A DNA stretch of 64,000 bases from Sinosporangium siamense. Its GTDB lineage: Bacteria > Actinomycetota > Actinomycetes > Streptosporangiales > Streptosporangiaceae. Both the position numbers and the translations under genes were made by a program. How positions within the stretch are numbered: position 1 is the stretch's first letter; each line of letters begins with the position of its first letter. The stretch lies in the NCBI RefSeq assembly GCF_016863435.1, contig NZ_BOOW01000034.1:1-64000 (forward strand). Reading direction: 5' to 3'. The notes under the pieces were generated by a model. That model made no database searches. It was not told where the DNA came from and was given only the letters and a program-made list of their open reading frames with translations. This document shows positions 1,350 through 16,837 of the stretch, in pieces.

Positions 1350-4300
1350 GCCGGCCCCTCATCGTCAGAGGTCTGCTGGGCAGGGGTCTGCCGACTCGGT
1401 TCGATCGCGTTGACCGACGAGTAGCCCTTGGGGCTCTTGACCATCAGCAGGACGCGGTCGGCGTGGGGCTCCAGCGAGGTGAACTTGTCGAACGGCGCCC
1501 CGATGATCAGCTGGAATCCCAGGCCCTTCCACGCATCGACTGAGCGGCCGGTGAACTCGCTGTCAGCTTTGACGAACCCTTCATCGAGGAACACCGGGGC
1601 GTAGCGGGGCCGGACGTTCTCGTCGTCGCCGAGTTGGAAGCGCAGCGCGGCCCCAACAATGAACGCGACCAGTTCCTGGGCTTCGCCTCCGGACTTTCCG
1701 CCGATCCTGTCGAAGGTGGCACGCTCGCGGCCTTCGGCATCGTAGGCGACGGCGGTGACGTTGATGTGCTTGCGGACGTCCAGGAAGTAGTCGCGGGTGT
1801 TCTTACCCCTTCCCTCGGGGCGGATCTGCTTCATGAATTGCTGAAGCCGGGCGAAGGCGGCTTGGACGTGGCCGTCGGTCATGCCGTCGACGTTCAGGCG
1901 CGCCAGGGCGTTGAGTTCGCGTTTGAACTTGGTGATGTCGTCGCGGTTCAGGATCCGTAGTTCGATCTTTAGTCGGTCGCGGCGCGCGCCGAAGGGCAGC
2001 CCGGCCAAAATGTTGTTGATGGGCGTGAGCCGATCGATGATCTCGTCGATGGCGTTGCCGAATGCTCCGGCGAGCGGGACAAGGTCTTGGCCGGACCAGT
2101 CAGTCAGGCGCCTGGTCCACTCCTCGCGACGTTTGTGCAGTCCGGTGGTCAGGATCCCGTCGAGGATCTTGCGGTAGGAGGGGTAGTCGTCGATGGAGTC
2201 GGACAGGTTCGGGTCGTTCCAGGTGTGCTGATAGTGACGGAACACCGTCTCCAGGGCCTGAGTGGCCTGCCGTGCCTTGGCTCGAGCGTCCTCGGCGGAT
2301 GCGGCCAGGCGCTTTTCGAGACGTTTGACGCCGGTGGTGAAGCCGTTGAGATCGTCGGCGGTGGCGACCTCGGCGAACTCTGTGTTCAGGTAGGCGGTCT
2401 GCTCGTCGGTGAGGGTGACCGCCTGCTGGGCGTTGATCCGATCGATGGCGCCACTGATGGCGTCTTTTCGTTCGACCAGCTCGCTCCACGCCTTGTCGAG
2501 CCCTGACATTCGGGTGTCGGCACTGTAGTAGGCCTTGTTCGCCTCCCCCAGTTCTCGCTCGACGCCTTCCAGATCGGTGCGGAGTTTGCGCAGCGTGTCG
2601 TCGACTTTGAGGATGTCCTCACGCAGCTGCTGCTTGGCCCGGATGTCGTTTTCGATGCCGTCGGGGTCGATGTCTCTGAAGCGGGCGACAGCTAGGACGT
2701 GGCCATGGGCCACGCGATCCTCGGCCAGTGCGTTGATCTTCCGGTCGGCATCAGCCAGCTTTTGATCATGATGGATCAGGATCTTCTCGATCTCCTCGAT
2801 GTCTTCGGCGATCTCGGCGAGGCGTTCGGTGTTGGTGAAGCCGATGACGTTAGGGGCACCTCGTTCGCCGTGGGCGCCGGAGGTGCCAGATCGGGTCTGG
2901 CCACTTGCGGTGACGCGAAGGCCGGGGCCGCGCAGGCCTTCCGGGCTGTCCACGCACAAGGCGTCGGTGTTGTCGGCGGTAAGGCGGTTCTGGACCCACG
3001 CGGTGAACGGGGAGTCTTTGTATTCGAGTTTCCCTGAGATCCGGTCGGGATGTCGGGTACGTGACCGTGCCGTGGCAGTCAGGTCGACGCCTTCGAAGCT
3101 GATCCGCCCTCGCAGCCGCAGCGGGTCGATGATCTTCGAGACATGGTCCAGCTGATCCGCGTCGACGAGCATGACCCTGGCCAGTCCGAACAAGGTGGTC
3201 TCGATGGCTTTGCGCCAACCCCGCTGATCGGGCGGGACGTCGATGAGTTCGCCGACGAACGGCAGCATCTCAGCATTGAGGTCGGTTTCTTCGGCGATCT
3301 GCATGCGGATCGCGTGGAGCTTGGGGTCCATACGGCCGGCGCGGCCAGACAGGGACTGTTGTTCCTCGAGCAGTTCACGTTTGAGCCCCAGCGGCTCGCG
3401 GGCTTCGTCTCTGATTGCGTCTCGCTCCTCGCGAGCGACCTTCGCGGCGTCTTCGTAGCCGTCCAGGAAGGCTGTGGCAGCGGTCTGCGTGCCAGCGAAA
3501 TCGGATTCGTCGGACAGTACCAGGTGTAGGCGCTGGGTGTTGGTGTTGAAGGTTTTCCGTCGTGACCGGGCAGCCTCGCGATCCTGTCTGAGTTGCTCAA
3601 TGGCCCGTTCCAGGCCGATGATCGTGGCGTTGGCTTCGTTGCCGCCCAGGTCGGCTTCTAGGTTGGTCTTGCGGCCGTTGAGCTCGATGCGCGAGTTCTC
3701 CGCTATGGCTTTGTCGGTCTTGGCTTCGCCGTGCAGGATGCGGTTCGTGGTCTCGGCCGTCTCCAGCAGCTTCTCCTCACACGTCAGCTTCCACAGCCCG
3801 AACGGGGAGTCGCCAGACATGATGTGGATGCCGAAGCCGTCGATGAGCCGGGCTTTGGCCAACTCGGCTTCACGGGTGTCGTTCAGCCCCGGGATCGGCT
3901 CCAGGACGCTGGCCTTGGCCTCCTCGGTGGCCATCGCTGTATGGGCGTCCTCCAGGTCGCCGAAGTGCTCCAGCGCCGCATCCGCTGCGGCATAGGTGCC
4001 GGGCAACTCCAGCACCATGGCGGTGTACAGGTCGTTGACGGAGCTGACCTGGTGGCCAGCTTGGATACGGGCCAGCAGCCGCAGCGCCCGGGCGCCATCG
4101 CCGCCGACGCCGATGCCCAGGCGGGTGAAGAACGCCTGCGAGAACGCGGCGTAGCTAGGGTGCATGCTCAGGTTCGGGAACGCGGCGGTCACTGAACGCT
4201 GATCGAACTTGTCGGCAGCGAACCGTTCCAGGGCACGCAGGTCGATGGCGCCGTCGATCGTGCACATCTTGCGGACCAGCTCACTGTCGCGCGCCGCCGA

Positions 4301-4756
4301 GCGCGGCACGTAGTACAGCCGCGCGACGGTGTAGCGCCGCTGCCTGTCATCGATGAACGTCAGCGCGATCGCGCCCCAGGTGGCGCTGTTTTGTCCCCGC
4401 AGCACCTGGTCGGCGAGTTCCCCGGTGGCGCTGTCCCGTCCGATGTCTTTCTTGCCGCGTAGGTACGACAGCAGGCTGCGCTGGTCCGCGCTGCGGGCCC
4501 GGCCGACGGTCGCGTCGTTGGAGGCCCCGTTGAACGGCACCGAGGAGTCCATTATCACGGCGATGTAGGCGTCCAGGAGCGTGGACTTGCCCGTGCCGGA
4601 CGCCCCTGACAGCAGCGTCGAGGTGGGCGAGAACGACACGCTGGCGTGGCCGGCGAACCCGCCCCAGTTGACCAGCTGAAGAGTCTCCACCTTCCACTGC
4701 GTGATGCCAGCGTCAGCCCCAGGGATGTAGAACATCGAGTCCTGATGCACATTCAC
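1346..4756 (-). CDS. jetC: Wadjet protein JetC (MukB-like SMC ATPase)
   Basis: The 1136-aa SMC-type ATPase is the motor of the Wadjet complex. The Walker A motif GASGTGKS is at 51-58. Long charged heptad-rich segments flank a central hinge-like region around residues 470-640. The ABC signature GKSGGE is at 1020-1025 and Walker B VFLDEGF at 1055-1061, with Asp1058/Glu1059. The motif order and size match JetC/MukB. It starts with GTG and overlaps jetB by GTGA. No zinc hook is visible, which separates it from the SbcC in this same window. All ATPase motifs are intact, so activity is expected. Confidence 0.93.
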   Translation of the reverse strand: MNVHQDSMFYIPGADAGITQWKVETLQLVNWGGFAGHASVSFSPTSTLLSGASGTGKSTLLDAYIAVIMDSSVPFNGASNDATVGRARSADQRSLLSYLRGKKDIGRDSATGELADQVLRGQNSATWGAIALTFIDDRQRRYTVARLYYVPRSAARDSELVRKMCTIDGAIDLRALERFAADKFDQRSVTAAFPNLSMHPSYAAFSQAFFTRLGIGVGGDGARALRLLARIQAGHQVSSVNDLYTAMVLELPGTYAAADAALEHFGDLEDAHTAMATEEAKASVLEPIPGLNDTREAELAKARLIDGFGIHIMSGDSPFGLWKLTCEEKLLETAETTNRILHGEAKTDKAIAENSRIELNGRKTNLEADLGGNEANATIIGLERAIEQLRQDREAARSRRKTFNTNTQRLHLVLSDESDFAGTQTAATAFLDGYEDAAKVAREERDAIRDEAREPLGLKRELLEEQQSLSGRAGRMDPKLHAIRMQIAEETDLNAEMLPFVGELIDVPPDQRGWRKAIETTLFGLARVMLVDADQLDHVSKIIDPLRLRGRISFEGVDLTATARSRTRHPDRISGKLEYKDSPFTAWVQNRLTADNTDALCVDSPEGLRGPGLRVTASGQTRSGTSGAHGERGAPNVIGFTNTERLAEIAEDIEEIEKILIHHDQKLADADRKINALAEDRVAHGHVLAVARFRDIDPDGIENDIRAKQQLREDILKVDDTLRKLRTDLEGVERELGEANKAYYSADTRMSGLDKAWSELVERKDAISGAIDRINAQQAVTLTDEQTAYLNTEFAEVATADDLNGFTTGVKRLEKRLAASAEDARAKARQATQALETVFRHYQHTWNDPNLSDSIDDYPSYRKILDGILTTGLHKRREEWTRRLTDWSGQDLVPLAGAFGNAIDEIIDRLTPINNILAGLPFGARRDRLKIELRILNRDDITKFKRELNALARLNVDGMTDGHVQAAFARLQQFMKQIRPEGRGKNTRDYFLDVRKHINVTAVAYDAEGRERATFDRIGGKSGGEAQELVAFIVGAALRFQLGDDENVRPRYAPVFLDEGFVKADSEFTGRSVDAWKGLGFQLIIGAPFDKFTSLEPHADRVLLMVKSPKGYSSVNAIEPSRQTPAQQTSDDEGPA

Positions 4757-5553
4757 GCTAGCGCCTCCATCTCCACCACGTCCTCCGCGTCCTCCACGTC
4801 TTGCGGGTCATCGTCGATGTCGGTGCCGAGGTCCTCGGCGGTCGTGCCCTGTCCACCGTTCTTGGCGATCAGCCACTCGTGCAGTTCGGCCAGCCGGGCA
4901 AGCGGCAGCAGGACGGCGATGACCGAGGAGATCCGCAGCCGGTCAACGTCGTTGGTCCGGGTCAGGACCCGGCTGGCGACCATGTTGTCGACAGCTTTCT
5001 CCGCGCGCCCCTTGTCTCGCGACCGGTCGGTGGCATGCGGTGGCCGGAAGGTGGCGATGTAGTCGAGCAGCTCCTGCCGCTCGACGGTGACGTCGTCGTG
5101 GCCGGCCTGCTGCTCGGCGCGGTGCCGGTGCCGCAGATATGCCAGCAGGATCGTCTCCTCGCGGGTGTAGGCGGTGTTCTGCAGCAGGGTCGGGAAGTCG
5201 GCGCCATCGGAGATGACTTTCCTCTTGTAGGCGACCTCGTGCTGCAGGTCCAAGTGCAAGTCGAGGAACATGTCGTTGAGCCGTGACTTGATCAGCTGGC
5301 TGTGTTCGCGAATGACGCGCCACTCGGCGGGGTTGCCTGTGGCAGAGACGAACTTGTTCCGCATAAGGCATACCAGCGCGCGCCGTTGCTCCAGCGACAG
5401 GCCGCCTTCGTCGCCGGAGAACAGGGCGAGGGTGGACCGGTCGGCGTCGCTGTCGTCGGCGAGATCCTCGCCTGTCGCCGAGAATTGCTCGTCGTATCCG
5501 CTCAGCGCTTCCTCGAGGCTGTCGTCGATCTCCGACGAATTGAGCTCAAGCAT
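4753..5553 (-). CDS. jetB: Wadjet protein JetB (DUF4194, MukE-like)
   Basis: The 266-aa MukE-like (kite-type, tandem winged-helix) subunit bridges the kleisin JetA and the SMC JetC. The protein has an acidic N-terminal tail, a helical core with the DUF4194 pattern (EQRRALVCLMRNKF; YTREETILLAYLRHRH) and a very acidic C-terminus. The reading frame is open further upstream, but the ATG at 5553 is preferred: it has AAGGA seven bases before it and overlaps the jetA stop by eight bases, whereas a longer start would run deep into jetA. It is the second gene of jetABCD. Confidence 0.9.
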   Translation of the reverse strand: MLELNSSEIDDSLEEALSGYDEQFSATGEDLADDSDADRSTLALFSGDEGGLSLEQRRALVCLMRNKFVSATGNPAEWRVIREHSQLIKSRLNDMFLDLHLDLQHEVAYKRKVISDGADFPTLLQNTAYTREETILLAYLRHRHRAEQQAGHDDVTVERQELLDYIATFRPPHATDRSRDKGRAEKAVDNMVASRVLTRTNDVDRLRISSVIAVLLPLARLAELHEWLIAKNGGQGTTAEDLGTDIDDDPQDVEDAEDVVEMEALA

Positions 5554-7057
5554 CAGTGATTCCTTCATCAGCTGCGGCGGCAAGTCGTTCGGCGTGGTGG
5601 GAGGACAGCAAAGCGGTAGGGGCCAGGAAGGTGCGGCGGTGCCCGTCAGGGCGGATGGCACGGAACTCCTCGGTGGTCCCGTCGGCGATGGAGGAGTCGT
5701 CGAGGCCGGAGAGTATGTGCAGAAGTCCCAGGATCTCCACCGGTCGGCGAAGATCTGTCGGGAGAGCGTTGAACACCTGTGCTGCGGTTGCCACGCCGGA
5801 CTCCATCAGCGCGTCGATGAGGGCGGCTCGCATCTGCTCTAGCGACGGGCCGCCCGCGGCCCTCAACTCCTCCACGCTCGGCGGGGCCGGAATGTCGTCG
5901 TCGGCCTGCCGCAGCGGAGGTGGTGGGGCGGCTGCGGCCGGGTCGTACATCTTCTCCCGCAAATGGCCGATCTTCGCCACCGGCGGCAGCAGGTCAACGT
6001 CGACCATCGATCTGGGCCCTGCTGTCTCCATCCAGGTCATCAACTCCCGCTGGATACCGCGAAGGACACGCTCCAACTCGCGCTCGGCGAGCGGGTCGTT
6101 GTTGACGATATGCTCCTTGAGGGTCTTGGACAGCCGGTGCCGCTGGTCCAGAACGTCCCTGGTGCCCTGGCGGATCACTGTAACCGTGCCCCGCAGCTCG
6201 GTCACGTCGCGCCCGTCCAGCGCCTCGGCAGCCGGGTGGCCGAGCAAGACCTGGATGTTCTCGCGCAGCTCGTTCATTAGCTCTGCGTCTCGCAGCAGCT
6301 CGAATGCGCCGTCGAAAGCCCGTCCCTCAGGGGTGGTCCGCAGTAGGCGGTCCTGGCTCTCCAGATACTCGTCCAGAACCTCGCCGACCACTCGCTCTTC
6401 GTCACGCAGGTCCCGCAGGATCTGGCGGTGCATATCAAGCATGGATTCCTCGACGCGTTTGAAGTCCGATGGCAGCTGGCCGATTAAGTCCATGAGGTTG
6501 GCGTATCCGTCGAGCATCCGATCCTCGGATGCGGCGGCCACGCCGCCGCCGCCGGCGATGCGGTCGCGCTCGACCTCCAACTCGCGGATCTGCGCGTTCA
6601 GGCGATCGACACGATCCTGGGGATCTGCCGAGGCCTCGGTCGCCCAGCGCCGGACCGTGTCCAGGATCATCGTCAGGCGGGACTCGGAGACCAGCGCCCG
6701 ATCTCGCGACAGGTTTTGAATCAGGTCGAGAGCTTCCAGTGACGACGATGTCAGCGAGTACACCAGGCTGCCGTCCGGGGCGTTGTCGCGGAACAGCCAC
6801 TGGTTCTTCACCCACGCGTTGCACAACACCCTGCCGCTCTCCGAGGCCGGCACCTCGATGCCTTCACCGAGCATCTCGCCGAGGTACGTGTCGACCTGCG
6901 TATGGAGGGCGTCCACCTGGATCGAACGCTGGTCTCGGGAGAACGCGCTGCGCAGCACAGCCACCCGGAACGCACCCCATTTACCATCAAGCAGCCTCAG
7001 AGTAGGGCGAGCTAGGGCATCTCCGGCACGTGCCAGTTCGCCGACAACGCCACTCAT
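5546..7057 (-). CDS. jetA: Wadjet protein JetA (DUF3375, MukF-like kleisin)
   Basis: The 503-aa first gene of the Wadjet operon is a kleisin that closes the JetC dimer. The N-terminus (ARPTLRLLDGKWGAFRVAVL, then the helical segment containing QVDALHTQVDTYL) is typical of DUF3375. A helical middle region holds several Leu-rich coiled-coil segments, and the C-terminal winged-helix-like part contains LPTDLRRPVEILGLLHIL. AGGTGG lies just upstream of the ATG. The three downstream genes overlap in series (8, 4 and 4 bases), so jetABCD is one transcript. About 250 bp separate it from the helicase gene upstream on the same strand. Confidence 0.92.
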   Translation of the reverse strand: MSGVVGELARAGDALARPTLRLLDGKWGAFRVAVLRSAFSRDQRSIQVDALHTQVDTYLGEMLGEGIEVPASESGRVLCNAWVKNQWLFRDNAPDGSLVYSLTSSSLEALDLIQNLSRDRALVSESRLTMILDTVRRWATEASADPQDRVDRLNAQIRELEVERDRIAGGGGVAAASEDRMLDGYANLMDLIGQLPSDFKRVEESMLDMHRQILRDLRDEERVVGEVLDEYLESQDRLLRTTPEGRAFDGAFELLRDAELMNELRENIQVLLGHPAAEALDGRDVTELRGTVTVIRQGTRDVLDQRHRLSKTLKEHIVNNDPLAERELERVLRGIQRELMTWMETAGPRSMVDVDLLPPVAKIGHLREKMYDPAAAAPPPPLRQADDDIPAPPSVEELRAAGGPSLEQMRAALIDALMESGVATAAQVFNALPTDLRRPVEILGLLHILSGLDDSSIADGTTEEFRAIRPDGHRRTFLAPTALLSSHHAERLAAAADEGITDA

Positions 7058-7310
7058 TCACCCACCTGCCATAGTTTTCGCACGGATTTCCTGTCGCAGG
7101 GTAAGTCACGCTCAAGACCGCATATCGATATGTCGCATTCGCTACGATTCACGATCAGCGAATGACGGATCTGTGGGAGCTGCGCCATCGTCGCTACTCG
7201 ATTCGGCCGGAATAGTGAGGCACGCCTATAGCTGCGGCCAATTGATTGAAGGCCCCGCGCCGACGGCGTGTTCTGCAGTACCGCGTTGGCTCCCCAGCGT
7301 GACATGGCTT
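7058..7310. promoter_or_regulatory. Intergenic region upstream of jetA
   Basis: This 253-bp gap lies between the SF1 helicase gene and jetA, which share a strand. It is AT-richer than the flanks and holds no convincing gene. It is the only space for a separate Wadjet promoter or for a terminator of the helicase unit. No clear -35/-10 pair or strong hairpin was seen. Confidence 0.4.
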
Positions 7311-8657
7311 CTACCCCGCCACGCGGTGCTGGGCGAGCTTGCTCAGCACCACCTGGTTGGCCTCCCAACCGTCGGGAAACTTCGCCTCGACCGACAGGTG
7401 TACCGGCTCGGTCGAAGCATGGCTGTCCAGCAGATCACTGACTCCAGTGCGTGCGACCACGATGCACGCCTGGCGGTGGCGAGAGGTGAGCACGCACAGC
7501 CGTCCCGCCTCCAGGTGGAACGTGCTCGCATCCCGGCGACCCGACAGCGGATGCACGACGATGACGACCTCGAACTCGCGGCCCTGCAATCGGTTGGCAG
7601 TGTCGACCGTCACTGCTGGCGCGGCGGAGTTACCGCTGAGGACGAGCGCGGCGCGCACCAGGTCGGCTTGGTCCCGGTGGGCTACTCCGATTGCCAGATC
7701 GCTGGCGTTCAAGGGCCGGCCGCTCGGATGGCGCTCGCACGTGCCGACCGCGCCGCGCTCCAGCAGGCGGGCTGCTAGGTTGGCGGCGGCCTGGATGGTT
7801 TCGGTGTCGGTGCGCGCGACATGACGGCGCGGTAGCTCGTGCAGCGCCCATCCGGTAGTGAACGCCATCTTCAGGGTCTCGTCCAGGTAGGTGTCGCCGA
7901 ACCCGGCGGTGCGGAACTCCAAGCCACGGACGTCCGGGCCGGTGCCAGCGCGGAAGCCTTCGAACGGGTAGAACGCCGCAGAGATGGTGGGTGCGGCCGA
8001 TGCCGGAAGTCGCCAGGAGACCGGTAGCCGATGTACAGGGATGCCCTTGTTGTGCTCCAGCATCACCGTCACCCCATTGAGCGTCGGGTCATGCGGCAAC
8101 CCAATCCACCGCTCGGTGCCAACGACGGTGAAAGGGTCCAGCTGTCCGGGATCACCGACGAACAAGCCGCGGTCGAACCGCTCGACGATCTGCAGCAACA
8201 TGTCCGAGCGCATCTGGTAGGACTCGTCCAGGATCGCCCAGCCGAACGTGCCGTCGCGGACCGTGGCCCACTTGGCTGAGGTGCCGACGATGATCTGGCA
8301 GCCGGCCAAGTCTCGCAGCGTGTTGCCGACGACGGTATTGAGCGGGTCGGATACGGCCGGCGGCGGGAGGTAACTGGAGGCGGACAGCCTGCCGATGGTG
8401 ACATTGGGGCGTGCGGCAGCCAGACGCACTATGAGGTCGTCGACCTGGTTGTTGGTCTGCGCAACGATGATCGAGTGCTCGGCACCATCGGCGAGTTCGC
8501 CGGCGGCGCGCACCACTAGGGTGCTCTTCCCAGCTCCCGGCGGGGAGTCAACGACCACCGCCTTGCGGCTGGTGTGGGATAGGTCGTCCATGATCGCGTT
8601 GATCGCCGTATCGGCGGCCGCGGCCGGGTCGAACGCCGCCACATGGTCAGTCTGCAT
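7311..8657 (-). CDS. Compact superfamily 1 DNA/RNA helicase (Upf1/Dna2-like core)
   Basis: The 448-aa protein is almost only a helicase core. Walker A SPPGAGKST is at 38-46, motif Ia-like AQTNNQVDDL at 66-75, motif II ILDESYQ at 142-148 (DES where DEA is usual), motif III GDPGQLDP at 168-175, motif IV SWRLP at 214-218, motif V TANRLQGREFE around 353 and motif VI TSRHRQA at 391-397. No nuclease domain or UvrD-type insertions are seen. The ATG overlaps the stop of the preceding gene by 11 bases and has GAGGAG upstream, so it is the last gene of a four-gene coupled unit with a RecB/Cas4-like nuclease. Inference: it supplies DNA unwinding to that nuclease, as in AddAB/AdnAB but on separate chains. 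Confidence 0.8.
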   Translation of the reverse strand: MQTDHVAAFDPAAAADTAINAIMDDLSHTSRKAVVVDSPPGAGKSTLVVRAAGELADGAEHSIIVAQTNNQVDDLIVRLAAARPNVTIGRLSASSYLPPPAVSDPLNTVVGNTLRDLAGCQIIVGTSAKWATVRDGTFGWAILDESYQMRSDMLLQIVERFDRGLFVGDPGQLDPFTVVGTERWIGLPHDPTLNGVTVMLEHNKGIPVHRLPVSWRLPASAAPTISAAFYPFEGFRAGTGPDVRGLEFRTAGFGDTYLDETLKMAFTTGWALHELPRRHVARTDTETIQAAANLAARLLERGAVGTCERHPSGRPLNASDLAIGVAHRDQADLVRAALVLSGNSAAPAVTVDTANRLQGREFEVVIVVHPLSGRRDASTFHLEAGRLCVLTSRHRQACIVVARTGVSDLLDSHASTEPVHLSVEAKFPDGWEANQVVLSKLAQHRVAG

Positions 8658-10167
8658 TGCCCCACTCCTCGGCGGCGTTGTCTTCAGGGTTGGTGTCGGG
8701 GTCGTCGTCGGCCGGGCTGCTGTGCGTCCACGGCATGCTGTCCGGCTCTGGGAACACCGGGGTCGGCCGCCAGCCGGGGTCGGGCAGGTAGTCCATGTGT
8801 TGCCCCAGCACGGGCACGGAGCCTTTCAGGGGGACGACGCCACGACCCATGCCGCCGGTGACCTCGACGAGGATCTGCGTCGATGCCCCGTCCGGGACCG
8901 AGGCGATGATCAGCGCCTTGTGGCTGTTCGGCATCGACGGGCTGATCAGGGTGACTCCGGGAGCCAGGCGAACTGGGTCGTAGGTGGTCACGGTGATCCG
9001 CGGCCGGGGGACGCGCCTATTCTTTGCGGTGGTGACCACCCGGTCGGGCTCGGCGCCGGTGACGACGCCGGCGAACGCCTCGCCCATGCTGCGCCGGTCG
9101 GCGAGGGCCAGCGGGTCATCGAAGGCCATGTCAGCCTCGAAATCGGCCTGGGCCCGCTCCAGTCGGCTCAGCCGCCGTGCTGCGCCGATCGCGCCGTCGT
9201 GTTTGCGCTGCGGCAGGCCGCCACCATCCTGATAGTCGGAGTAGGCGGTGAAGGAGGCGAGGTCGCGTTCGAACCGAGCGGCGGTGCGTGGCGCTTCCGG
9301 GACGGCACGCAACAGGGAGACCGCTGCCCACATTAGCCGCCAGGTGGGTTTGATCTGCTCGCCGATCAGCTCCCGCAGGTCAGCCTCAGCAGCGGCAGTC
9401 GCCGCGATGTCGCCGCGGGCATAGGTGTCATCGAACCGACGTATTGCCGGTGCGAGGTAGGTCTTGTCGAACTCCGGAGAGGTCGCGGGGCCCGCCGGCG
9501 GGCACACGGCCGGATTCTCGGCGTCGGCGATGGCCTGCGCGACGCTCAAGCCCTCGGGCGGGTCGATCCATCCCATGATCGAGGCAAGGTTCTGGTCCTC
9601 CATGGTGCTCTGCCCGGTGGCCCAGTGCTCGGCGAGCATCCCGGTGACCGGCAGCAGCATTGAAGTTCCGGCCTGCTCGGCGGTCTCGGCCAGGAACGTC
9701 AGCCACATTCCCAGCTGTGGCACCACCGGCGCCACCGGGTAGGGGCCCTCAGCCTTGCGGTACCGACACATCCGGCCGAGGTCGATCAGGGCTTTGATGC
9801 CGCCGGGGTTGGGGACCAGGATCTGGGGAGCGTCGGTGTACCGGGAGGTTGGGCCCTCAACGCGGGAAGCCACCTCGCGACGGTGCAGTCGGTGGGAGTC
9901 GATGTAGTTCATCACGATTCGGCCGAGATCGGCGGCGAACGCGAAACGCTGGTCTCGGTTGCGTGGCTGGGCGACGACCAGCAGCTTCGGGGCCGTCCGG
10001 GACGTCCCTGCCATCGCCGCCAGCGGGGCACCGGCCTCGCCCGCCATGGTCAACGGCACGATCACCAGCGGCTTGGCTGACAGACGCCGGTGTCGGAAGA
10101 CGGTGAGCGACACCGCCCGCATCTGCTCCATCGCCTCCAGGTGCGCCATCGCTGACACTCTGCTCAT
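8647..10167 (-). CDS. Unrecognised 506-aa protein of the helicase-nuclease unit
   Basis: I do not recognise this protein. It is soluble, without signal peptide or membrane segments. Visible traits are an alpha/beta N-terminal part (residues about 30-75, with LVIVPLTMAGE and LLVVAQPRNRD), a helical Trp-containing middle, a charged region with many Arg/Asp, a later beta-rich part (PRITVTTYDPVRLAPGVTLI), and an acidic disordered tail. The frame is open further upstream, but the ATG at 10167 overlaps the preceding stop in ATGA and is the natural start. It sits between nuclease and helicase genes with overlaps on both sides, so it very probably works in one complex with them. Confidence 0.75.
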   Translation of the reverse strand: MSRVSAMAHLEAMEQMRAVSLTVFRHRRLSAKPLVIVPLTMAGEAGAPLAAMAGTSRTAPKLLVVAQPRNRDQRFAFAADLGRIVMNYIDSHRLHRREVASRVEGPTSRYTDAPQILVPNPGGIKALIDLGRMCRYRKAEGPYPVAPVVPQLGMWLTFLAETAEQAGTSMLLPVTGMLAEHWATGQSTMEDQNLASIMGWIDPPEGLSVAQAIADAENPAVCPPAGPATSPEFDKTYLAPAIRRFDDTYARGDIAATAAAEADLRELIGEQIKPTWRLMWAAVSLLRAVPEAPRTAARFERDLASFTAYSDYQDGGGLPQRKHDGAIGAARRLSRLERAQADFEADMAFDDPLALADRRSMGEAFAGVVTGAEPDRVVTTAKNRRVPRPRITVTTYDPVRLAPGVTLISPSMPNSHKALIIASVPDGASTQILVEVTGGMGRGVVPLKGSVPVLGQHMDYLPDPGWRPTPVFPEPDSMPWTHSSPADDDPDTNPEDNAAEEWGNAD

Positions 10168-11420
10168 GCCGTAGCCCCCGCCCCGTCGGCCTGGCCCAAG
10201 ACCTCGGTGCGCAGGCGAGCGGCGTGCCGCAGCGCGGCGGCCATCTCGGCCTGGTCCGCGTCTGGTGTGAGCTCGCCGCGCGCCAGGCCCAGGGCCATGG
10301 TGGCGGTGTCGATTCCGCCGAGCTGCTCGCGCACCGCAGAACCGAGTACATCCAGCGACGCGCATGCGCGAGCACGGGACCGGCAGAAGAAGGCCATCTC
10401 GCAGTGGCTCAAGCAGTCCGGGCGATACAGCGCAGGCACCTGATCCAAGGCCTCGGCGAGTTCTTCGGCCGGGCGCAGCGCCCGGCCGGACTTATCGATG
10501 GCGAGGTCGAAGGTGAGGTCTTCGGGTAGCAGAGACACCAGGTCGCCGATGTGCTCGATCCGGGTCAGCTGGCGGGTCAGCGTGGCGACCTGCTTACGGG
10601 CGTCGACGAACGCCGCGGTGGGGCTGTTGGTGAAGTCCTTGGGCGCGACGAGCAGCATCGTGTCGGACACGGCGTCCGGGCCGATCCCGGCATCCGCCAG
10701 CATCGCGCGCAACGCGATGACATAGGCGCTGGCCTGCGTCGTCGCCGCCTTGACCTGGGCCGCGTCGGCCCGGCCGTCGATGATCGGGAAGCTCTTGATC
10801 TCCACGACGTGGAACCGGTCTTCGATGCGGAACGCCACCAGGTCCGGCTCGAGGAACACCGTGTGCCCGCCGACCTGCAGACGCAGCATGGGGTGGTCAT
10901 ACAGCGTTCCGGGAGATTTCCCGAGAGCCGTGTTCACCAGCAACTGCCGGGTGCGGGAGTGACGAACTTCGGGGCTGGCGTTACCGCCGACGTCGTTCAG
11001 GTCCTGATACGCCACCTCCGGCAGCGTCAGTTTCAAGGTTTCGCGCAGCACGCGGATCAGCTCCGCGCAGCCGTTCGCCTTAACCAACGCTTCGAATACG
11101 TTGCCACGGGCGATAGCGAAGGGGGACTGGCCGAACGGCGTCGGGAAGCCGGCATGCGCGGCGATTGCGGCCTTGTCGGAGCCGGAGGCATCCAGAACGG
11201 CCCGAAGCGTACAGCGGGGGTTGTTCTCCAACGCGGCCAAAGACCGGGCGCTGTAGGTCAGGCGCGGTGCGGAGCCGCGTAGCCCGTCGAGACGTTCGTC
11301 GACTGCTGCTTTCACGGTGTCGGGATCCTTGAAGGGGACGAAGGGATCGCTGGCGGGGTCAAGCTTCGGCTTGGTGTTTGCTGACGTTACCCAGCGGCGC
11401 GCCGAACAGCTGCTGGGCAT
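10164..11420 (-). CDS. RecB/Cas4-type PD-(D/E)XK nuclease with probable Fe-S cluster cysteines
   Basis: The 418-aa protein has the ordered elements of Cas4/AddB-like nucleases: a first cysteine at 70 (NNPRC), a G-x-x-x-E element RGNVFEALV at 105-113, catalytic EPD at 191-193, EIK at 207-209, QASAY (QxxxY) at 229-233, and a cysteine group at 336, 340, 346 and 353. This fits an iron-sulfur-stabilised RecB-family exonuclease, though the metal cluster is inferred. The ATG at 11420 lies 62 bp inside the upstream gene; an in-frame GTG at 11315 is an alternative start. It ends in an ATGA overlap with the next gene. Confidence 0.8.
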   Translation of the reverse strand: MPSSCSARRWVTSANTKPKLDPASDPFVPFKDPDTVKAAVDERLDGLRGSAPRLTYSARSLAALENNPRCTLRAVLDASGSDKAAIAAHAGFPTPFGQSPFAIARGNVFEALVKANGCAELIRVLRETLKLTLPEVAYQDLNDVGGNASPEVRHSRTRQLLVNTALGKSPGTLYDHPMLRLQVGGHTVFLEPDLVAFRIEDRFHVVEIKSFPIIDGRADAAQVKAATTQASAYVIALRAMLADAGIGPDAVSDTMLLVAPKDFTNSPTAAFVDARKQVATLTRQLTRIEHIGDLVSLLPEDLTFDLAIDKSGRALRPAEELAEALDQVPALYRPDCLSHCEMAFFCRSRARACASLDVLGSAVREQLGGIDTATMALGLARGELTPDADQAEMAAALRHAARLRTEVLGQADGAGATA

Positions 11421-12192
11421 CGGTGAACCGGTGTGCGCGCCGGGCTGCCGCCGCGCGGTCGGCGCGGTCGGTGTCTATGTGCACCTGCAGTTCCGCACCC
11501 GCGGCGTCCATCACCTGCCGCGGGTCTACGGGGTGCTCGTGGCTGGCCGGGCCCGTCGGCGCCGCATCAGGGATACTCGCCGCGAAACGCCACAGTAGCC
11601 GCAGCGCCGCCGGGCTGGGTCCGGTTTGACTGGACCCGGCCACAGCCTGCACCGCCTCGGCCACGCGGATCGCACTGGAGAGGTAGTCGACGCGAGGTGA
11701 CAGCGGGCCGATAATGCGTTGCTCCAGTGCCCAGGTGCTGACTGTGATGAGCGCGCGCATCGGGGACAGCAGGTCATACGCAAGTGCAGGACACAGGTAG
11801 TAGGGCCGCGAGCCGGGGGTCGCCCGATAGGAGCGCTCCTCGTCCCGGCGCAGGCTGGAAAGTTTGGCAGCAGTCAACTCACCGACGAAGAACGCCTCAT
11901 GCACGCTGACGATCAGCTTCGGCGCCGCCGGCACACCGAGGAGCATCAACACCCGGTGCACGTGTTCCCGGGCCGGCAGCATCGCCCCCCCCATTCTCAG
12001 CGCGGGTGCCGACGGTGGCGCATGCGTCTCCGCTGGAGCGTCATCGGTGTCGACGAGGGCGTCCCAGGCCCGTTCAGCGCGGCGGAGTTGGGCGCGCAGC
12101 TCCGCGGTACGCTCAGCGTCCCCGGTCGCATCACGGATGGCGCGGCGCAGCTGGTTGATGCGCGTTTCTAGTGCGTCCAACGGATCACTCAT
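11359..12192 (-). CDS. Unrecognised 277-aa protein, N-terminal coiled coil and possible winged helix; first gene of the helicase-nuclease unit
   Basis: I do not recognise this family. Residues about 1-45 form a charged Leu/Arg/Glu coiled coil (DALETRINQLRRAI). After a Pro/Ala linker, residues about 70-125 resemble a winged-helix fold ending in a wing-like RPYYLCPAL; the rest is helical. The ATG at 12192 is used; an in-frame ATG lies four codons upstream. No strong Shine-Dalgarno is present. It is the promoter-proximal gene, its 3' end overlaps the nuclease gene, and it diverges from sbcD. Inference: a DNA-sensing or structural subunit, or a regulator of the unit. Confidence 0.7.
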   Translation of the reverse strand: MSDPLDALETRINQLRRAIRDATGDAERTAELRAQLRRAERAWDALVDTDDAPAETHAPPSAPALRMGGAMLPAREHVHRVLMLLGVPAAPKLIVSVHEAFFVGELTAAKLSSLRRDEERSYRATPGSRPYYLCPALAYDLLSPMRALITVSTWALEQRIIGPLSPRVDYLSSAIRVAEAVQAVAGSSQTGPSPAALRLLWRFAASIPDAAPTGPASHEHPVDPRQVMDAAGAELQVHIDTDRADRAAAARRAHRFTDAQQLFGAPLGNVSKHQAEA

Positions 12193-12326
12193 GGACCACA
12201 CCATACCAGTCTTCCCGAGTCTTCCAGACTTTCCCCTGGTCTTGGTGTACGGTCGTCTTCAACATCCTTCCGACCGCGTCGTCGCCGCCAGCGGCGATCC
12301 CGCGGATCTTCCCCTGGAGGCATCCC
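12193..12326. promoter_or_regulatory. Divergent promoter region between the helicase-nuclease unit and sbcDC
   Basis: This 134-bp gap serves both directions. It is rich in GTCTTCC-type repeats (GTCTTCC occurs twice within about 15 bp near 12210-12226) and is pyrimidine-skewed on the plus strand. A clear sigma-70 promoter could not be fixed by eye. A shared regulatory region suggests that the two units are co-controlled. Confidence 0.45.
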
Positions 12327-13643
12327 GTGACGGGACGCGTATTCCACACCTCCGACTGGCACCTGGGCCGCCAGATCGGCCGCCACCGACGCGACGCCGA
12401 ATTCGACGCCGTCCTGGCCGAGATCGTTGAAATTGCCGCCGATTTCCGGCCCGACCTCATCGTGCACAGCGGAGACCTATTCGACAGCTCCCGGCCAGGG
12501 CTGGACGACATCGTTCGCGCTGCGCAGACGCTTCGCCGCCTCGAACAGGTCGCCCCGGTCGTCGTCGTCGCCGGCAACCACGACACGCGCAACGTGCTGA
12601 CGTTCCTGGAGTTCATCCTGAACGACATGGGCAGACAGGACAGAACGCAGGCGCGGGTCCGCTTCGCCACCGACGCCCGCCCCGACGGGCTTCTCATCGC
12701 TGAATACCCCGCTGCCGACGGGGAGTCGACCATCCGGATCGGCGCGCTGCCGTACCTGCACCCCAACCGGTTCGCCTACGACTTTGCCGACCCGGCGACT
12801 GCGACCGCGGCCTACGCCGAGCGGATGCGCGCCGTCCAGGCCGACGTCCACCAGCGCCTGACCTCGGGCGCCAGGCCGGACCACCTTCTGGTCTTCGCCG
12901 CCCACCTGTTCGTCGAAGGCGCCGTCCCGTCGCGTTCGGAGAAGCCGATAAGCATCGCAGACGACTACGCCGTCGTAGCGGGCGCCCTACCAGGCGTCGT
13001 TTACGGCGCTCTGGGCCACATCCACAAACCTCAAGCGATCACCAGCGCCCCCTTCCCTGCCTATTACGCTGGCAGCCCACTGCAGCTGGACTTCGGCGAG
13101 ATCAACGACACCAAGAGCGTGGTGCTGGCCGAGATCGCGCCGGGCCGCGAACCCCGCATCACCACCGAGCCGCTGACGTCGGGCCGCCGCCTGGTCAAAC
13201 TCGAGGGCACGTTGGACGAGATCGCACAACGCGCCGGCCGCGTCGGCGACGCCTGGGTGAAAGCCGTGGTGAAGGCTGAAGCCTCCAACCCGCATCTGGG
13301 CGAGACCCTGCAGAAGATGCTTCCGGAAGCGACGCTCGTCATCATCGACGAGATCCGCCCCGGAGCGGCGAACCGCGTGCTAGATCGCAGCGCGGCTGCC
13401 GAAGAACTGCCCGGCGTCGACGAGCTTCTCCGCTCGTACCTGGACGACCGAGGCACCAGCGGCGTCGGCCTCGATCGTGTCATGGCCGCCTTCGGCGCCT
13501 TGTGCGACGAGCCGGACCCGGAGGCTCCCTCCCCGTGCTGTGAGGAGACGCTGCTGTCTGCGGCCATCGCCGGCTCCGGTCTGGACGGGATCGACCGGTC
13601 CGGCCTACTCACCGCGATCCCCTCGCCGGAGGGCGTGCGATGA
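12327..13643 (+). CDS. sbcD: Exonuclease SbcCD subunit D (metallophosphoesterase)
   Basis: The 438-aa Mre11-type nuclease has all the calcineurin-like metal motifs in order: SDWHLG near the N-terminus, HSGDLFD, GNHD, a later AAHLFVEG and GHIHKP. The frame is open further upstream, but the GTG at 12327 begins exactly at the conserved first strand (VFHTSDWH) and is preceded by GGAGG six bases away. It overlaps sbcC by four bases (ATGA), so the two are co-translated. It forms a complex with SbcC that trims hairpins and protein-blocked DNA ends. Its place between two defence-like units suggests an accessory copy, although the chromosomal copy cannot be excluded. Confidence 0.92.
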   Translation: MTGRVFHTSDWHLGRQIGRHRRDAEFDAVLAEIVEIAADFRPDLIVHSGDLFDSSRPGLDDIVRAAQTLRRLEQVAPVVVVAGNHDTRNVLTFLEFILNDMGRQDRTQARVRFATDARPDGLLIAEYPAADGESTIRIGALPYLHPNRFAYDFADPATATAAYAERMRAVQADVHQRLTSGARPDHLLVFAAHLFVEGAVPSRSEKPISIADDYAVVAGALPGVVYGALGHIHKPQAITSAPFPAYYAGSPLQLDFGEINDTKSVVLAEIAPGREPRITTEPLTSGRRLVKLEGTLDEIAQRAGRVGDAWVKAVVKAEASNPHLGETLQKMLPEATLVIIDEIRPGAANRVLDRSAAAEELPGVDELLRSYLDDRGTSGVGLDRVMAAFGALCDEPDPEAPSPCCEETLLSAAIAGSGLDGIDRSGLLTAIPSPEGVR

Positions 13644-16600
13644 AGCCTTTGACGCTGTCGCTGACCGGGTTCCGCAGCTATCCCAACCCGGTCACCGTAG
13701 CCTTCACCGGCAAGACCCTAATCGCCGCGCTCGGCGACACAGGCGCCGGCAAGAGCAGCCTGCTAGAGGCCATTACGTTCGCCTTGTTCGGCAGGAGCTC
13801 CTGGGACGGCAAGGCGTCCCGCCAGCTCATCGCCGACGGTACGTCGGCCATGAGCGTCGAGCTGCTCTTCCTGCACAACGACGAGCGGTGGCAGGTGCAC
13901 CGCACGAGCCACGCCACCAACCCCAACGCTGGCCGGCACCACCTGAAGAACATGGACACCGGCGAAGAAGCCGACGGCGCCACCAGCGTCAATATGCGTA
14001 TCAAGACCCTGCTGCATATGAACGACGAGACGTTCCTGCGCGCCGCACTGCTTCCGCAAGGCCGCTTCGACCGGCTGCTGGTCGCCACCATGAGGGACCG
14101 CTCCAAACTACTCCGTGAGCTGTTCGGCGCCGACTCCCTGGAGACCGTCCGCGCTCAAGCCGACCGCCAGCTGCACTCCGTCGAGCAGCTATTGGCCGTG
14201 GCCACGGTAAAGCGGGACACCATGCCGGCCGACCCCGAGCAGACCGCGAACGACGCCTGCCTCGCCGCCGAAACCGCCGAGGCGATCGCTGGCCGCCTGG
14301 AGAGCACCATCACCGCCGTCAAGGCGTTGCAGAACCAGGCCTCTCAGGCCGAAACCGCTGCCGCAGCGGCACGCACGCAGGCACAGACCCTATCGACGCT
14401 CGCCACCACCGACGCCGACGCGGTCCTGGCCCGGCTCGAGCCCATTACTGCTCAAATCGCCGACCGACGCAATGATCTGGACCGCCGCGCCAGCGCCGCC
14501 GTTGCCACCGAAAGCGACCTCACCTCAGCCATCGGGGGCGCGGACCGCGATGGCGAAGGACTCGCTGCGCTCGGCCAGGCGGCAGCGTTGCTGGAAACCC
14601 TCGCCGCCCGCACCGAGGAACAGCGGACAGAACACGACCGGCTGACTGCGACCGCCGACCAGCTTGCCGCCGAAGCCGCCGACATCACCGATGCCCAGAG
14701 GGAACTTGCGGTCCGTGCCACCCGTGCCGACCCCCTCACTACCGCCGCTGCGGCCGCAGCCGACCTCAGCGCGAAGGTCCGCACTCGCGTATCGGCAACC
14801 CGCGAGGCGGTAACAGCAACGGCAACCGCGGCCCGGCAGGTCGCCGATGCTACGCAGGCCCAAACGACCGCGGAACAGAAGCGGGATGAACTCCAGGTTC
14901 GCATCGCACCGGCCGAACAACAGGCCGAGGACGCCCAAAAAGAGCTCACCGCCGCGCAGACGCTCCTGGAATCCTTGCGCTCACGCGACCGCGTCGCCGA
15001 GTTCGCTGCTGAACTGCACCCCGGCGACGACTGCCCAGTGTGCCAGAGGGCCGTTCCCGACGACTTCGAACCCGTGAGCAAGGCCGGCACCGCCGCCATC
15101 AGAAAGGCGAACGCGGACCTGCGCACCGCCCAGGAACTGCTGGTGGACGCCAACACCCGAGTCGCCGAGGCTAAGGCTGCACTGGCAGCTGCCGAGACCA
15201 GTGTCAAGGAACGTGAAACTGCACGCCGAAAGGCTGCCTCCCGCGCTGCGCAGGCCGCCGACACCGCCGACACGATGCTGCAGGAACTCTCCTCGTCGGC
15301 GAGTGACGCCGTGCCAGGCGCCCAATTCGACACGGTTGCTGCCCAGGCGACCCTCCAACACGCCATCGCGGTACTGACCACCGCTCCCGCCGACGACGCG
15401 GCAGCATCGGAACTCGCCGCGCCGATCACCACCGCGCTGTTCGAGTACGAACAGGTCGCCGCCAGTCACGCCGAACAGCTGCACAGCAAAGCTGCCGGCT
15501 ACACCGCCACTATCGCCGCCGACGGCAAAGCCCTGGACCAACGCAAGGCGGCCTACGAACGAGGACTGGCCGACAATGACGCCGCCAATAAGCGGCACAC
15601 GGCCGCAACCGCCAGACTGGCCGCCGCCGTTGGTTCCTTGCCTTCGCGCTTCAGACAAGTGCTGCCCGCCGAATGGCTCGCCATCACCGCAGCCGAGGCG
15701 AATGCCGCGGCCGCTCAGGTCAACGCCCGCATGGCCGAAGTCCAGAAGCTTATCGACGATCGGGAACGAGCCCGCGCTGAGGCAGCCGAGGTGAGCAGAC
15801 TGCAGCGCGACCTCGAGCGGGAAGCGGCGGCCGCAGTCGATCGTCCGCTGGGCCAACTGCGTGCCTCCCTCGAGGTCTGGTCTCAAGCCGCCCAGCAGGC
15901 CGCCTCCCGGCTGAACGACGGCCAGGCCGCAGACATCGAGGTGCCCCGCGTTGACACCGATGCCGCCGACATCGGGGAGCTGAGATCGGTTGCCGCGGCC
16001 CTGTCGACGTCCACCGCCGCACTGGACCGTGAACTGCACGCTGACGCGGCCCGGTGCGCTTCGCGCGAAGCCGACGCCGTCGCCGCTCTCGGCGAGTACG
16101 CCAAGGAACTCTCCGACATCGAAGGTTTGGACACCTCGATCGATCTGACAACCCCGGACGCGCTAATCACCCTGGCGACCGCCGCCGGCCACGCGAAGCG
16201 CGAGGCCGCCGGCCGGCGCAAGGAACAACAGACCGCGCAAGAACAGATCAGACCGGCTGCCGACCTGGACTTCGCCATCACCGCCGGACAGACAAGGCTG
16301 GACACGTTGAGCGTGCTGCGCCGGGAGCTCGTCGACGCCAAGTTCCTTGGGCACCTGACCACGCTGCGGACCCGCGCTCTGCTCGGCGTTGCCAGCGACC
16401 TGCTCGGGCAGATGTCCGACGACCGGTTCGGCTTCGCCGAGACCTTCGACATCATCAGCCGAGGCTCCGGGGTGGAACACCATCCCAACCGGCTCTCCGG
16501 CGGAGAGAAGTTCCTCGCCTCGCTCGCCCTCGCGCTGGCTCTGGCCGAGATGCATTCCCGCGGCGGTACGCGCCTTGGTTCGCTGTTCCTCGACGAAGGC

Positions 16601-16837
16601 TTCGCGGCGCTGGATACCACCACCCTCGAGGCGGCGCTGGAAGTGCTCCGGGCACAAGCCGGGGGTGACCGTCTGGTCATGGTGATCAGCCACCTGCACG
16701 CTATCGCCGAAGCCGTCGACGACGTGTTGTGGGTGGAGAGGACCCCTGCAGGATCCTCGGCGCGCTGGCTGACCCAGGAGGAACGCGACGAGTTGGTGCA
16801 GGCGAATCTGGCCAGCGGGCTGCAAACGCTGGCATGA
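13640..16837 (+). CDS. sbcC: Exonuclease SbcCD subunit C (Rad50-like ATPase)
   Basis: The 1065-aa Rad50-type ATPase has Walker A GDTGAGKS at 32-39, two long Ala/Glu/Arg/Gln-rich coiled coils, a zinc hook CPVC at 465-468, ABC signature LSGGE at 952-956 and Walker B LFLDEGF with Asp985/Glu986. The length and layout are normal for actinobacterial SbcC. The start overlaps the sbcD stop in ATGA. A large hairpin follows directly after the stop. The zinc hook distinguishes it from the Wadjet SMC protein nearby. Confidence 0.94.
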   Translation: MKPLTLSLTGFRSYPNPVTVAFTGKTLIAALGDTGAGKSSLLEAITFALFGRSSWDGKASRQLIADGTSAMSVELLFLHNDERWQVHRTSHATNPNAGRHHLKNMDTGEEADGATSVNMRIKTLLHMNDETFLRAALLPQGRFDRLLVATMRDRSKLLRELFGADSLETVRAQADRQLHSVEQLLAVATVKRDTMPADPEQTANDACLAAETAEAIAGRLESTITAVKALQNQASQAETAAAAARTQAQTLSTLATTDADAVLARLEPITAQIADRRNDLDRRASAAVATESDLTSAIGGADRDGEGLAALGQAAALLETLAARTEEQRTEHDRLTATADQLAAEAADITDAQRELAVRATRADPLTTAAAAAADLSAKVRTRVSATREAVTATATAARQVADATQAQTTAEQKRDELQVRIAPAEQQAEDAQKELTAAQTLLESLRSRDRVAEFAAELHPGDDCPVCQRAVPDDFEPVSKAGTAAIRKANADLRTAQELLVDANTRVAEAKAALAAAETSVKERETARRKAASRAAQAADTADTMLQELSSSASDAVPGAQFDTVAAQATLQHAIAVLTTAPADDAAASELAAPITTALFEYEQVAASHAEQLHSKAAGYTATIAADGKALDQRKAAYERGLADNDAANKRHTAATARLAAAVGSLPSRFRQVLPAEWLAITAAEANAAAAQVNARMAEVQKLIDDRERARAEAAEVSRLQRDLEREAAAAVDRPLGQLRASLEVWSQAAQQAASRLNDGQAADIEVPRVDTDAADIGELRSVAAALSTSTAALDRELHADAARCASREADAVAALGEYAKELSDIEGLDTSIDLTTPDALITLATAAGHAKREAAGRRKEQQTAQEQIRPAADLDFAITAGQTRLDTLSVLRRELVDAKFLGHLTTLRTRALLGVASDLLGQMSDDRFGFAETFDIISRGSGVEHHPNRLSGGEKFLASLALALALAEMHSRGGTRLGSLFLDEGFAALDTTTLEAALEVLRAQAGGDRLVMVISHLHAIAEAVDDVLWVERTPAGSSARWLTQEERDELVQANLASGLQTLA

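Follow-up and report, generated by a model that had tools for sequence, protein, structure and literature searches.

A 64,000-nt stretch of the Sinosporangium siamense genome (assembly GCF_016863435.1, contig NZ_BOOW01000034.1, positions 1-64,000 of the forward strand; hereafter the window) contains, next to a type I system of the anti-plasmid defence Wadjet, a module of six genes encoding a helix-turn-helix (HTH)-like protein, a RecB/Cas4/Dna2-like nuclease with iron-sulphur (Fe-S)-type cysteines (Nuc), an uncharacterised protein of 506 amino acids (aa; U506), a superfamily 1B (SF1B) helicase (Hel) and the Mre11-Rad50 counterparts SbcD and SbcC. The association of this module with Wadjet is well shown, and the six genes fairly probably constitute a DNA-end-resection module that works together with Wadjet, by a mechanism that we infer. 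Wadjet adjoins the module in 21 of 23 distinct loci of the close class of relatives, and this adjacency, which involves several independent pairings, is far beyond chance.

Association of the module with Wadjet systems

Relatives were found with U506 alone as query; those with 65-88% identity in this protein are treated as the close class, with distant classes at approximately 38-51%. The close class examined comprises 23 distinct loci, namely the window, L031-L041, the plasmid loci L078 and L079, and L111-L119, with duplicates left out of the counts (L120/L121 equal L034/L035, L002/L003/L004 equal L031/L039/L032, and L001 is the window). A 24th close place, the second U506 copy of genome G1030, stands outside the 23, and a JetA1 place adjoins that copy. 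The adjoining Wadjet is of type I in eight loci (the window, L040 as a remnant, L078, L079, L112, L117, L118 and L119), of type II in seven (L033, L036, L037, L111, L113, L114 and L115) and of type III in six (L031, L032, L034, L035, L039 and L041). Types were assigned by PADLOC in the window, L036, L037, L039, L078, L111 and, via L137, L034, by DUF3375/DUF2397 in further Streptomyces loci, by annotation in L079 and by tblastn in the rest. All type I systems and six of the seven type II systems lie on the Hel side of the module, and the type III systems together with the type II system of L033 lie on the SbcC side, with gaps as short as 153 bp between Hel and JetA (L078) or 28 bp between SbcC and JetA3 (L039). 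A role of the module as a substitute for missing JetD was rejected, since JetD is present in the checked examples of types I, II and III.

SbcD is divergent from the HTH-like gene in all 23 close loci and is followed by SbcC in 22 of them; in close relatives SbcCD belongs to the module, and the unit consists of six genes rather than four. An earlier note on this DNA had placed a four-gene unit between Wadjet and SbcCD. That the unit travels beside defence genes holds, but SbcCD forms part of the unit, whose usual partner is Wadjet.

As a control, 20 of the 28 JetA1/JetA2 places (both JetA1 places and 18 of the 26 JetA2 places) in 69 Streptomyces genomes without a close module were opened over up to approximately 9 kb per side, less in L168 owing to a contig end. 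Wadjet genes were seen in these loci, and all 20 lack HTH, Nuc, U506, Hel, SbcC and SbcD (E 1e-5); hence the module is a feature of some Wadjet systems and not a general neighbour of type I and II loci. In 80 genomes, 11 of which were chosen for carrying the module, a close module lies beside five of seven JetA1 and four of 36 JetA2 places. With 28 JetA1/JetA2 places in 69 genomes, or approximately 0.4 per multi-Mb genome, chance adjacency within 10 kb is of the order of 0.001 per locus, an estimate that covers JetA1/JetA2 and not type III. The JetA2 proteins beside Streptomyces modules (L111, L113, L114 and L115) form a divergent sub-lineage, with DUF2397 scores of 157-161 bits versus 217-538 bits in the other 32.

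On the U506 tree, Wadjet type labels need nine changes versus 12.2 for shuffled labels, a value as low being reached in six of 200 shuffles, and on well-supported branches at least three, six and two changes are forced for types I, II and III, respectively. The labels thus appear partly clustered on this tree, yet far from a single origin each. Modules with different Wadjet types are interleaved there, which indicates repeated re-pairing rather than one frozen island. Among the examples, very short branches unite L114 (type II, with a broken SbcCD) with L117 and L118 (both type I), and L037 (type II) and the window (type I) have U506 proteins that share 85% identity.

Organization of the locus

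The earlier note had described four overlapping minus-strand genes within 7311-12192 of the window. All four open reading frames (ORFs) were found there, and because 94 rows contain both U506 and Hel (identical proteins collapsed, the window included, some loci possibly entered twice under two locus ids), these are not chance ORFs. The four genes belong to a ten-gene run from JetD to SbcC that spans window 189-16837 and has the following features.

189..1349, minus strand: JetD, Wadjet type I nuclease (PADLOC JetD1, E 1.8e-90)
1346..4756, minus strand: JetC, Wadjet type I SMC (structural maintenance of chromosomes) ATPase (PADLOC JetC1, 1242 bits)
4753..5661, minus strand: JetB, Wadjet type I, extent of the ORF (PADLOC JetB1, E 5.2e-88)
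5546..7057, minus strand: JetA, Wadjet type I (PADLOC JetA1, E 1.8e-164)
7311..8657, minus strand: Hel, bare SF1B (AAA_11/AAA_12, Upf1/SMUBP2-like) helicase, 448 aa (Pfam AAA_11 and AAA_12)
8647..10167, minus strand: U506, uncharacterised, 506 aa from a conserved ATG (conserved ORF, no family match)
10164..11315, ORF to 11420 (418 aa), minus strand: Nuc, predicted RecB/Cas4/Dna2-like nuclease with four Fe-S-type cysteines (conserved residues)
11359..12192/12204, minus strand: HTH-like protein of 277 aa (start at ATG 12192), possibly a DNA-binding regulator (conserved gene)
12205..12226, minus strand: candidate operator with direct repeats TGGA/CGGGA/TGGT, just upstream of the HTH-like gene
12327..13643, plus strand: SbcD (Mre11), divergent from the four genes (Pfam Metallophos, five phosphoesterase motifs)
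13640..16837, plus strand: SbcC (Rad50) (Pfam AAA_23 and SbcC_Walker_B; Walker A GDTGAGKS, CPVC hook, LSGGE)

Library scans covered these ten genes, Wadjet through SbcC. By PADLOC, JetA1 to JetD1 are adjacent at window 189-7057 and constitute a type I Wadjet, in which JetB probably starts downstream of its ORF start, with homology beginning near residue 60. Hel overlaps U506 by 11 bp and U506 overlaps Nuc by 4 bp, and a gap of 253 bp separates Hel from JetA. At E <= 0.001, the genome has a single place each for Hel and U506. Since two other SbcD-like places (34% identical) exist elsewhere in this genome, the SbcCD of the window represents an extra copy. The G+C content at third codon positions is 0.78-0.86 in the ten genes from JetD to SbcC versus 0.88-0.96 in five other sampled genes of the window, which is in keeping with horizontal acquisition.

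Components of the module

Conserved residues were read from alignments of 73 Nuc, 95 U506, 94 Hel and 32 HTH rows, from which identical and odd-length proteins had been removed; nine of the 73 Nuc rows are of the close class. In Nuc, E191-P-D193, E207-I-K209, Q229 and Y233 are kept in all nine close rows, as the earlier note had proposed for its EPD, EIK and QxxxY motifs, and over the full set of 73 the counts are 66 for D193 and 65 each for E207 and K209. Five cysteines had been claimed, but four (C70, C336, C340 and C346) are invariant in an alignment of 20 that includes the window, and in the larger set a single row of the 73 lacks C70, the other three being present throughout. With D, ExK, QxxxY, one N-terminal and three C-terminal cysteines, the protein carries the residues of a RecB/Cas4-like Fe-S nuclease and is, by its sequence, a RecB-family nuclease with Fe-S-type cysteines, whose activity and cluster are predicted. 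The last three cysteines are spaced CX3CX5C, the spacing in Dna2 and Cas4 being CX2CX5C. A subset of 34 rows, most of them Streptomyces, includes copies that have lost one or other residue, E207 being retained in 28 rows and K209 in 26. Nuc probably starts at GTG 11315, because, apart from the start of the full ORF, it is the one start codon that precedes the conserved region, and a 379-aa RefSeq homologue in L078 fits this start; therefore the HTH-like gene and Nuc would not overlap, and of the four overlapping genes described earlier the overlaps of Hel with U506 and of U506 with Nuc stand.

No match of Nuc was obtained in Pfam, PADLOC, NCBIfam or PHROGs, and a profile search of Protein Data Bank (PDB) sequences gave nothing meaningful, including no meaningful match to a solved nuclease. 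Designed repeat proteins, which came up as the best PDB matches of a diverse Nuc alignment, were set aside as artefacts. Pfam on 20 diverse Nuc members returned sporadic matches alone, with PDDEXK_1 in one of 20 (E 0.031). The AlphaFold2 model of Nuc has a mean predicted local distance difference test score (pLDDT) of 50.9, with block means of 51-88 over residues 151-260. Foldseek of this model listed 50 matches, of which 32 are to proteins of EXO5, Dna2, MGME1, AdnA, Cas4, RecE or phage-exonuclease type, and none of the 50 reaches E <= 0.001.

Hel had been read as a bare SF1 helicase, and this is borne out by its Pfam matches to AAA_11 (32.6 bits) and AAA_12 (30 bits), both above the cut-off of 27, which together with its SF1 motifs identify an Upf1/DNA2-type SF1B helicase. 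Walker A and B and motif residues are kept in 94 rows. Below cut-off, NCBIfam gave PLuB_AAA (E 3.1e-13) and the IGHMBP2-family helicase (E 1.9e-7), the match to 'PLuB system helicase-like protein' scoring 48 bits against a cut-off of 999. Hel further matches a PHROGs family without assigned function (E 2.6e-10), SMUBP-2 among PDB sequences by phmmer (E 1.5e-5) and, in PADLOC, weak generic helicases alone (MkoA/MkoC, best E 3.1e-6).

U506 is unrecognised, as the earlier note had said, with no match at E < 0.01 in Pfam, PADLOC, NCBIfam, PHROGs or PDB sequences. A PDB profile search gave nothing meaningful, Pfam on 19 diverse members returned sporadic matches alone, and HerA-like and viral matches were not relied on. 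The low-confidence AlphaFold2 model (mean pLDDT 49.8, with block means of 59-87 over 361-460) suggests a helical core with a C-terminal beta-barrel-like region at approximately 365-462, and Foldseek of this model found no match at E <= 0.001. The input alignments held the window with ten close relatives for U506 and with nine for Nuc, and the models are poor because close relatives alone were included. That U506, with this barrel-like C-terminal part in a low-confidence model, supplies the 1B-type barrel and stalk known from Dna2 is a guess. A phage origin of the module was rejected: U506 was not matched in 50,697 phage records, and none of 39 pattern matches in viral contigs was confirmed.

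The HTH-like protein, which the earlier note had called winged-HTH-like, has no match at E < 0.01 in Pfam, PADLOC, NCBIfam or PHROGs. Its sole support as a DNA-binding protein comes from conserved upstream repeats, which suggest that it may bind DNA. Direct repeats of (Y)TGGA(A), in helical phase, lie just upstream of its gene across relatives. Two or more TGGA units in phase are present in 41 of 51 loci, against an expectation of 0.58 when the 250-bp stretches concerned are shuffled by mononucleotide, and ten of the 51 lack such a pair under the strict test; these are the loci with a located HTH start, the window excluded, and as relatives they do not represent 51 independent cases. In the window the triplet at 12205-12226 (TGGA/CGGGA/TGGT, with approximately 10 and 8 bp spacing) is degenerate, with one strict TGGA, and is the sole such triplet found in the window. 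The repeats would represent a shared control element and candidate operator. SbcD, with its five phosphoesterase motifs, and SbcC, with Walker A, the CxxC hook and the signature motif, are recognised as SbcCD (Mre11-Rad50).

Distribution and distant forms

Homologues of U506 occur in 213 of 345 genomes of the order, in 14 of 396 genomes of a phylum sample that includes the genome of the window, and, for any class at E <= 0.001, in 378 of 392 Streptomyces genomes, 11 of which (of the same 392) carry the close SbcCD-bearing form. Elsewhere, 11 loci were found in named genomes, and three plasmid records were found, one being an 11.9-Mb Nonomuraea record filed as plasmid. The SbcCD-bearing architecture extends to distant classes. 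L153 (U506 44%) combines the four genes with a divergent SbcCD and a type I Wadjet (47-53% identical), and L154/L161 (U506 39%) combine them with a divergent SbcCD and a type II Wadjet (weak tblastn matches, E 3e-7 to 6e-22), a peptidase-like gene lying between SbcC and Wadjet. Pertaining to the latter, pPIWI-RE-like genes lie approximately 15 kb further on the other side of the module (L162). In total, 23 of 25 SbcCD-bearing forms examined have an adjacent Wadjet.

A different partner is found in ten of the 17 distant loci outside the core that were opened, where the four genes are divergent from a PDDEXK gene and a three-gene pPIWI-RE island, which in that Streptomyces lineage occupies the place of SbcCD (L128-L130, L143, L144 and L146-L150; families checked on L128/L129, others by tblastn). 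Adjacent genes for pPIWI-RE, a DinG-like helicase and a restriction endonuclease, which define a pPIWI-RE system, are found in these loci alone, and the ten scanned window genes match none of them. In L145 a DUF6119 gene stands in the place of the pPIWI-RE island, followed by the contig end; no SbcCD, Wadjet or pPIWI-RE lies within approximately 7-9 kb in L151, L152 and L155; L160 has U506 and Nuc without Hel; and L010, L014 and L145 run off their contigs. Defence-like neighbours of distant forms are a PD-Lambda-1-like protein, a Snf2-type helicase, an SMC-like ATPase and an Hsp70 protein that carries an NYN RNase domain (coordinates as listed: L129:5425-7404, L130:12235-15411, L128:16464-18887 and L151:15226-17328).

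Lone forms of the Nuc-U506-Hel trio are common. It is present in all 20 loci L042-L061 from the family of the window, with an HTH-like gene seen in 17, and in all nine opened Streptomyces core loci (L122-L127 and L156-L158), which share the same conserved neighbours and in which the HTH-like gene was undetected. The earlier note had held that homologues of U506 occurring alone in conserved housekeeping loci would refute its reading of the unit. Such a syntenic locus does exist in Streptomyces, but U506 is not alone there, being accompanied by the nuclease and the helicase. Because of this retention in a syntenic core locus, the trio may be an ancestral DNA-end-processing or repair machine that was later recruited to defence.

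Some individual close loci have further features. L078 is located on a linear 300-kb plasmid. In L119, identical-scoring U506 copies (G1030:C1:8759-10258 and 9259114-9260613) lie near both contig ends, placed as if in terminal repeats, with JetA1 beside both. L116 sits at the start of a whole-chromosome contig, and L116:9725-12623, the usual Wadjet position, encodes a UvrD-like helicase of 487 aa (with weak matches of GajB type), an ORF of 157 aa and a DUF6083 protein.

Proposed function and alternative explanations

In the favoured reading of a resection module working with Wadjet, JetABCD would measure and linearise small circular DNA, as is known for Wadjet, and the SbcC-SbcD of the module would recognise and clip the resulting ends, including protein-blocked and hairpin ends, as known for SbcCD elsewhere. 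Nuc, U506 (as scaffold or DNA-gripping barrel) and Hel (as SF1B motor) would then resect and degrade the DNA, in a make-up like that of Dna2 or AddAB split over three chains, and the HTH-like protein would bind the phased repeats before its own gene and restrain the module. An alternative target would be linear replicons, which Wadjet leaves uncut and such hosts commonly carry; the pair would then cover both DNA topologies. A block that brings its own Mre11-Rad50 together with a RecB-type nuclease and an SF1B helicase would suit either task, consuming the linear product or attacking linear replicons. Passages of the Wadjet literature describe the cutting of small circular DNA and the escape of linear plasmids (PMC10586767). 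For Mre11-Rad50, action on free, blocked and hairpin ends is described in passages of a further source, according to which transformation of E. coli by a linear plasmid with hairpin ends increases nearly to the circular level once rad50 or mre11 is deleted (PMC12624138).

A wider and distinctly more tentative proposal is that the split Dna2-like trio and its Mre11-Rad50 counterpart may serve as a plug-in degradative back-end of topology-sensing immunity, shared by Wadjet types I-III and by pPIWI-RE, where SbcCD would be swapped for the PIWI island, and extending protection to linear replicons when paired with Wadjet.

A number of observations weigh against a resection module tied to Wadjet. 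In the 80 genomes, most Wadjets are without a close module (32 of 36 JetA2 and two of seven JetA1 places), and the distant form of the module was not found either at the 20 opened control places. No Wadjet was seen in two of the 23 close loci, L038 and L116; the former is damaged, with a deletion through Nuc and U506 and the SbcC end in another frame, and the contig of the latter starts approximately 80 bp past SbcC, with no Wadjet for approximately 26 kb on the other side. Either partner can also decay singly: Wadjet remains where SbcCD is broken over several frames (L079, at a record edge) or where SbcD is shortened and SbcC gone (L114), and in L040 (Catenulispora rubra) an intact module accompanies a type I Wadjet reduced to JetA, JetB and JetC fragments. 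The 20 loci L042-L061 and all nine opened core loci of Streptomyces have neither SbcCD nor Wadjet within approximately 5-10 kb, the former also being without pPIWI-RE over the stretches read, and because such lone forms are common, Wadjet is dispensable for the function of the trio. Structural support is close to nil for U506 and weak for Nuc (mean pLDDT as above, best Foldseek E 0.008, with DinG as top match), and the likeness of the whole trio to Dna2 is an analogy and not a homology of the whole.

The main rival of resection for immunity is host protection, in which the module would repair accidental chromosomal breaks made by Wadjet and act as insurance against autoimmunity. SbcCD and Dna2/AddAB-type enzymes are indeed repair enzymes, and the presence of U506 in 378 of 392 Streptomyces genomes, with syntenic core loci among those opened, is as for a repair set; the close form, however, is patchy (11 of 392), has two plasmid copies and in some cases lies near contig or chromosome ends, and most Wadjets manage without the module, so that we regard this explanation as unlikely. 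An independent system against mobile genetic elements, with its own trigger and merely sharing islands with Wadjet and pPIWI-RE, would accommodate the four-gene core that stands with the pPIWI-RE island and PDDEXK gene in 10 of 17 distant loci and alone elsewhere. It is less likely again, since random neighbours would vary, yet Wadjet is next to the module in 21 of 23 loci, on either flank and in three types, and Wadjet likewise lies past SbcC in the two divergent forms that carry SbcCD. That the genes represent an ordinary helicase-nuclease operon for DNA repair without any role in immunity, its proximity to Wadjet reflecting hitch-hiking of a repair cassette, would suit the syntenic core Streptomyces copies and the SbcCD-bearing L038 and L116; with Wadjet beside 23 of 25 SbcCD-bearing forms and repeated swaps of Wadjet type beside close modules, hard to explain by passive hitch-hiking, it is highly improbable. 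The reading of the unit as defence or DNA-end processing in the earlier note is partly supported.

The passages seen of the Wadjet literature do not state the fate of DNA after Wadjet cutting, and the module makes this question of clean-up testable; the escape of linear DNA from Wadjet likewise becomes directly testable through it. At the same time, the association provides a first functional lead for Nuc-U506-Hel, as U506 is widespread in Streptomyces and is named by no searched family library. No report of a Wadjet association with the six-gene module was found in the parts seen of the searched literature, which had preprints and most subscription papers outside its scope. What is new is apparently the recurrent combination of known enzyme types with a known defence partner and one wholly uncharacterised subunit.

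Comparison with known systems

In line with the earlier note, no named system was matched by PADLOC, and three of the four proteins have no match in Pfam, NCBIfam or PHROGs. Wadjet types I, II and III are the usual partner, represented in the window by type I JetABCD, and are distinct from the module, none of whose six genes corresponds to JetA-D; HTH, Nuc and U506 are unmatched in PADLOC, and Hel, SbcC and SbcD have generic matches there alone. With Mre11-Rad50, the SbcC and SbcD of the module share the expected motifs, and the distinguishing feature of this copy is its divergent pairing with the four genes. The pPIWI-RE island is an alternative partner of the four genes in ten Streptomyces loci and is unmatched among the ten window genes; the passages seen of its 2013 description name a restriction endonuclease (REase), a DinG-like helicase and pPIWI-RE only (PMC3702460).

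Nuc resembles Cas4 in its RecB-type motifs and four Fe-S-type cysteines, and Cas4 is among its weak fold matches. It has no Cas4 match in Pfam or PADLOC, and no Cas protein was found among the ten window genes scanned. AddAB and AdnAB likewise combine a helicase with a RecB-family nuclease, AdnA being among the weak fold matches of Nuc and AddB carrying Fe-S cysteines of like kind. In those enzymes, however, a UvrD-type SF1A motor is fused to the nuclease, whereas the helicase of the module is separate and of AAA_11/AAA_12 type. Membership in either the Cas4 or the AddAB/AdnAB group was rejected on gene architecture and the lack of family matches. Dna2, a eukaryotic nuclease-helicase and the resection partner of Mre11-Rad50, is a single chain with nuclease, beta-barrel, stalk and SF1B helicase; the module resembles it in combining an Fe-S RecB-type nuclease with an SF1B helicase, and Dna2 ranks 3, 14 and 18 among the weak fold matches of Nuc. 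The gene order Nuc-U506-Hel mirrors the nuclease-barrel-helicase order of Dna2, with the difference that the trio is spread over three separate genes.

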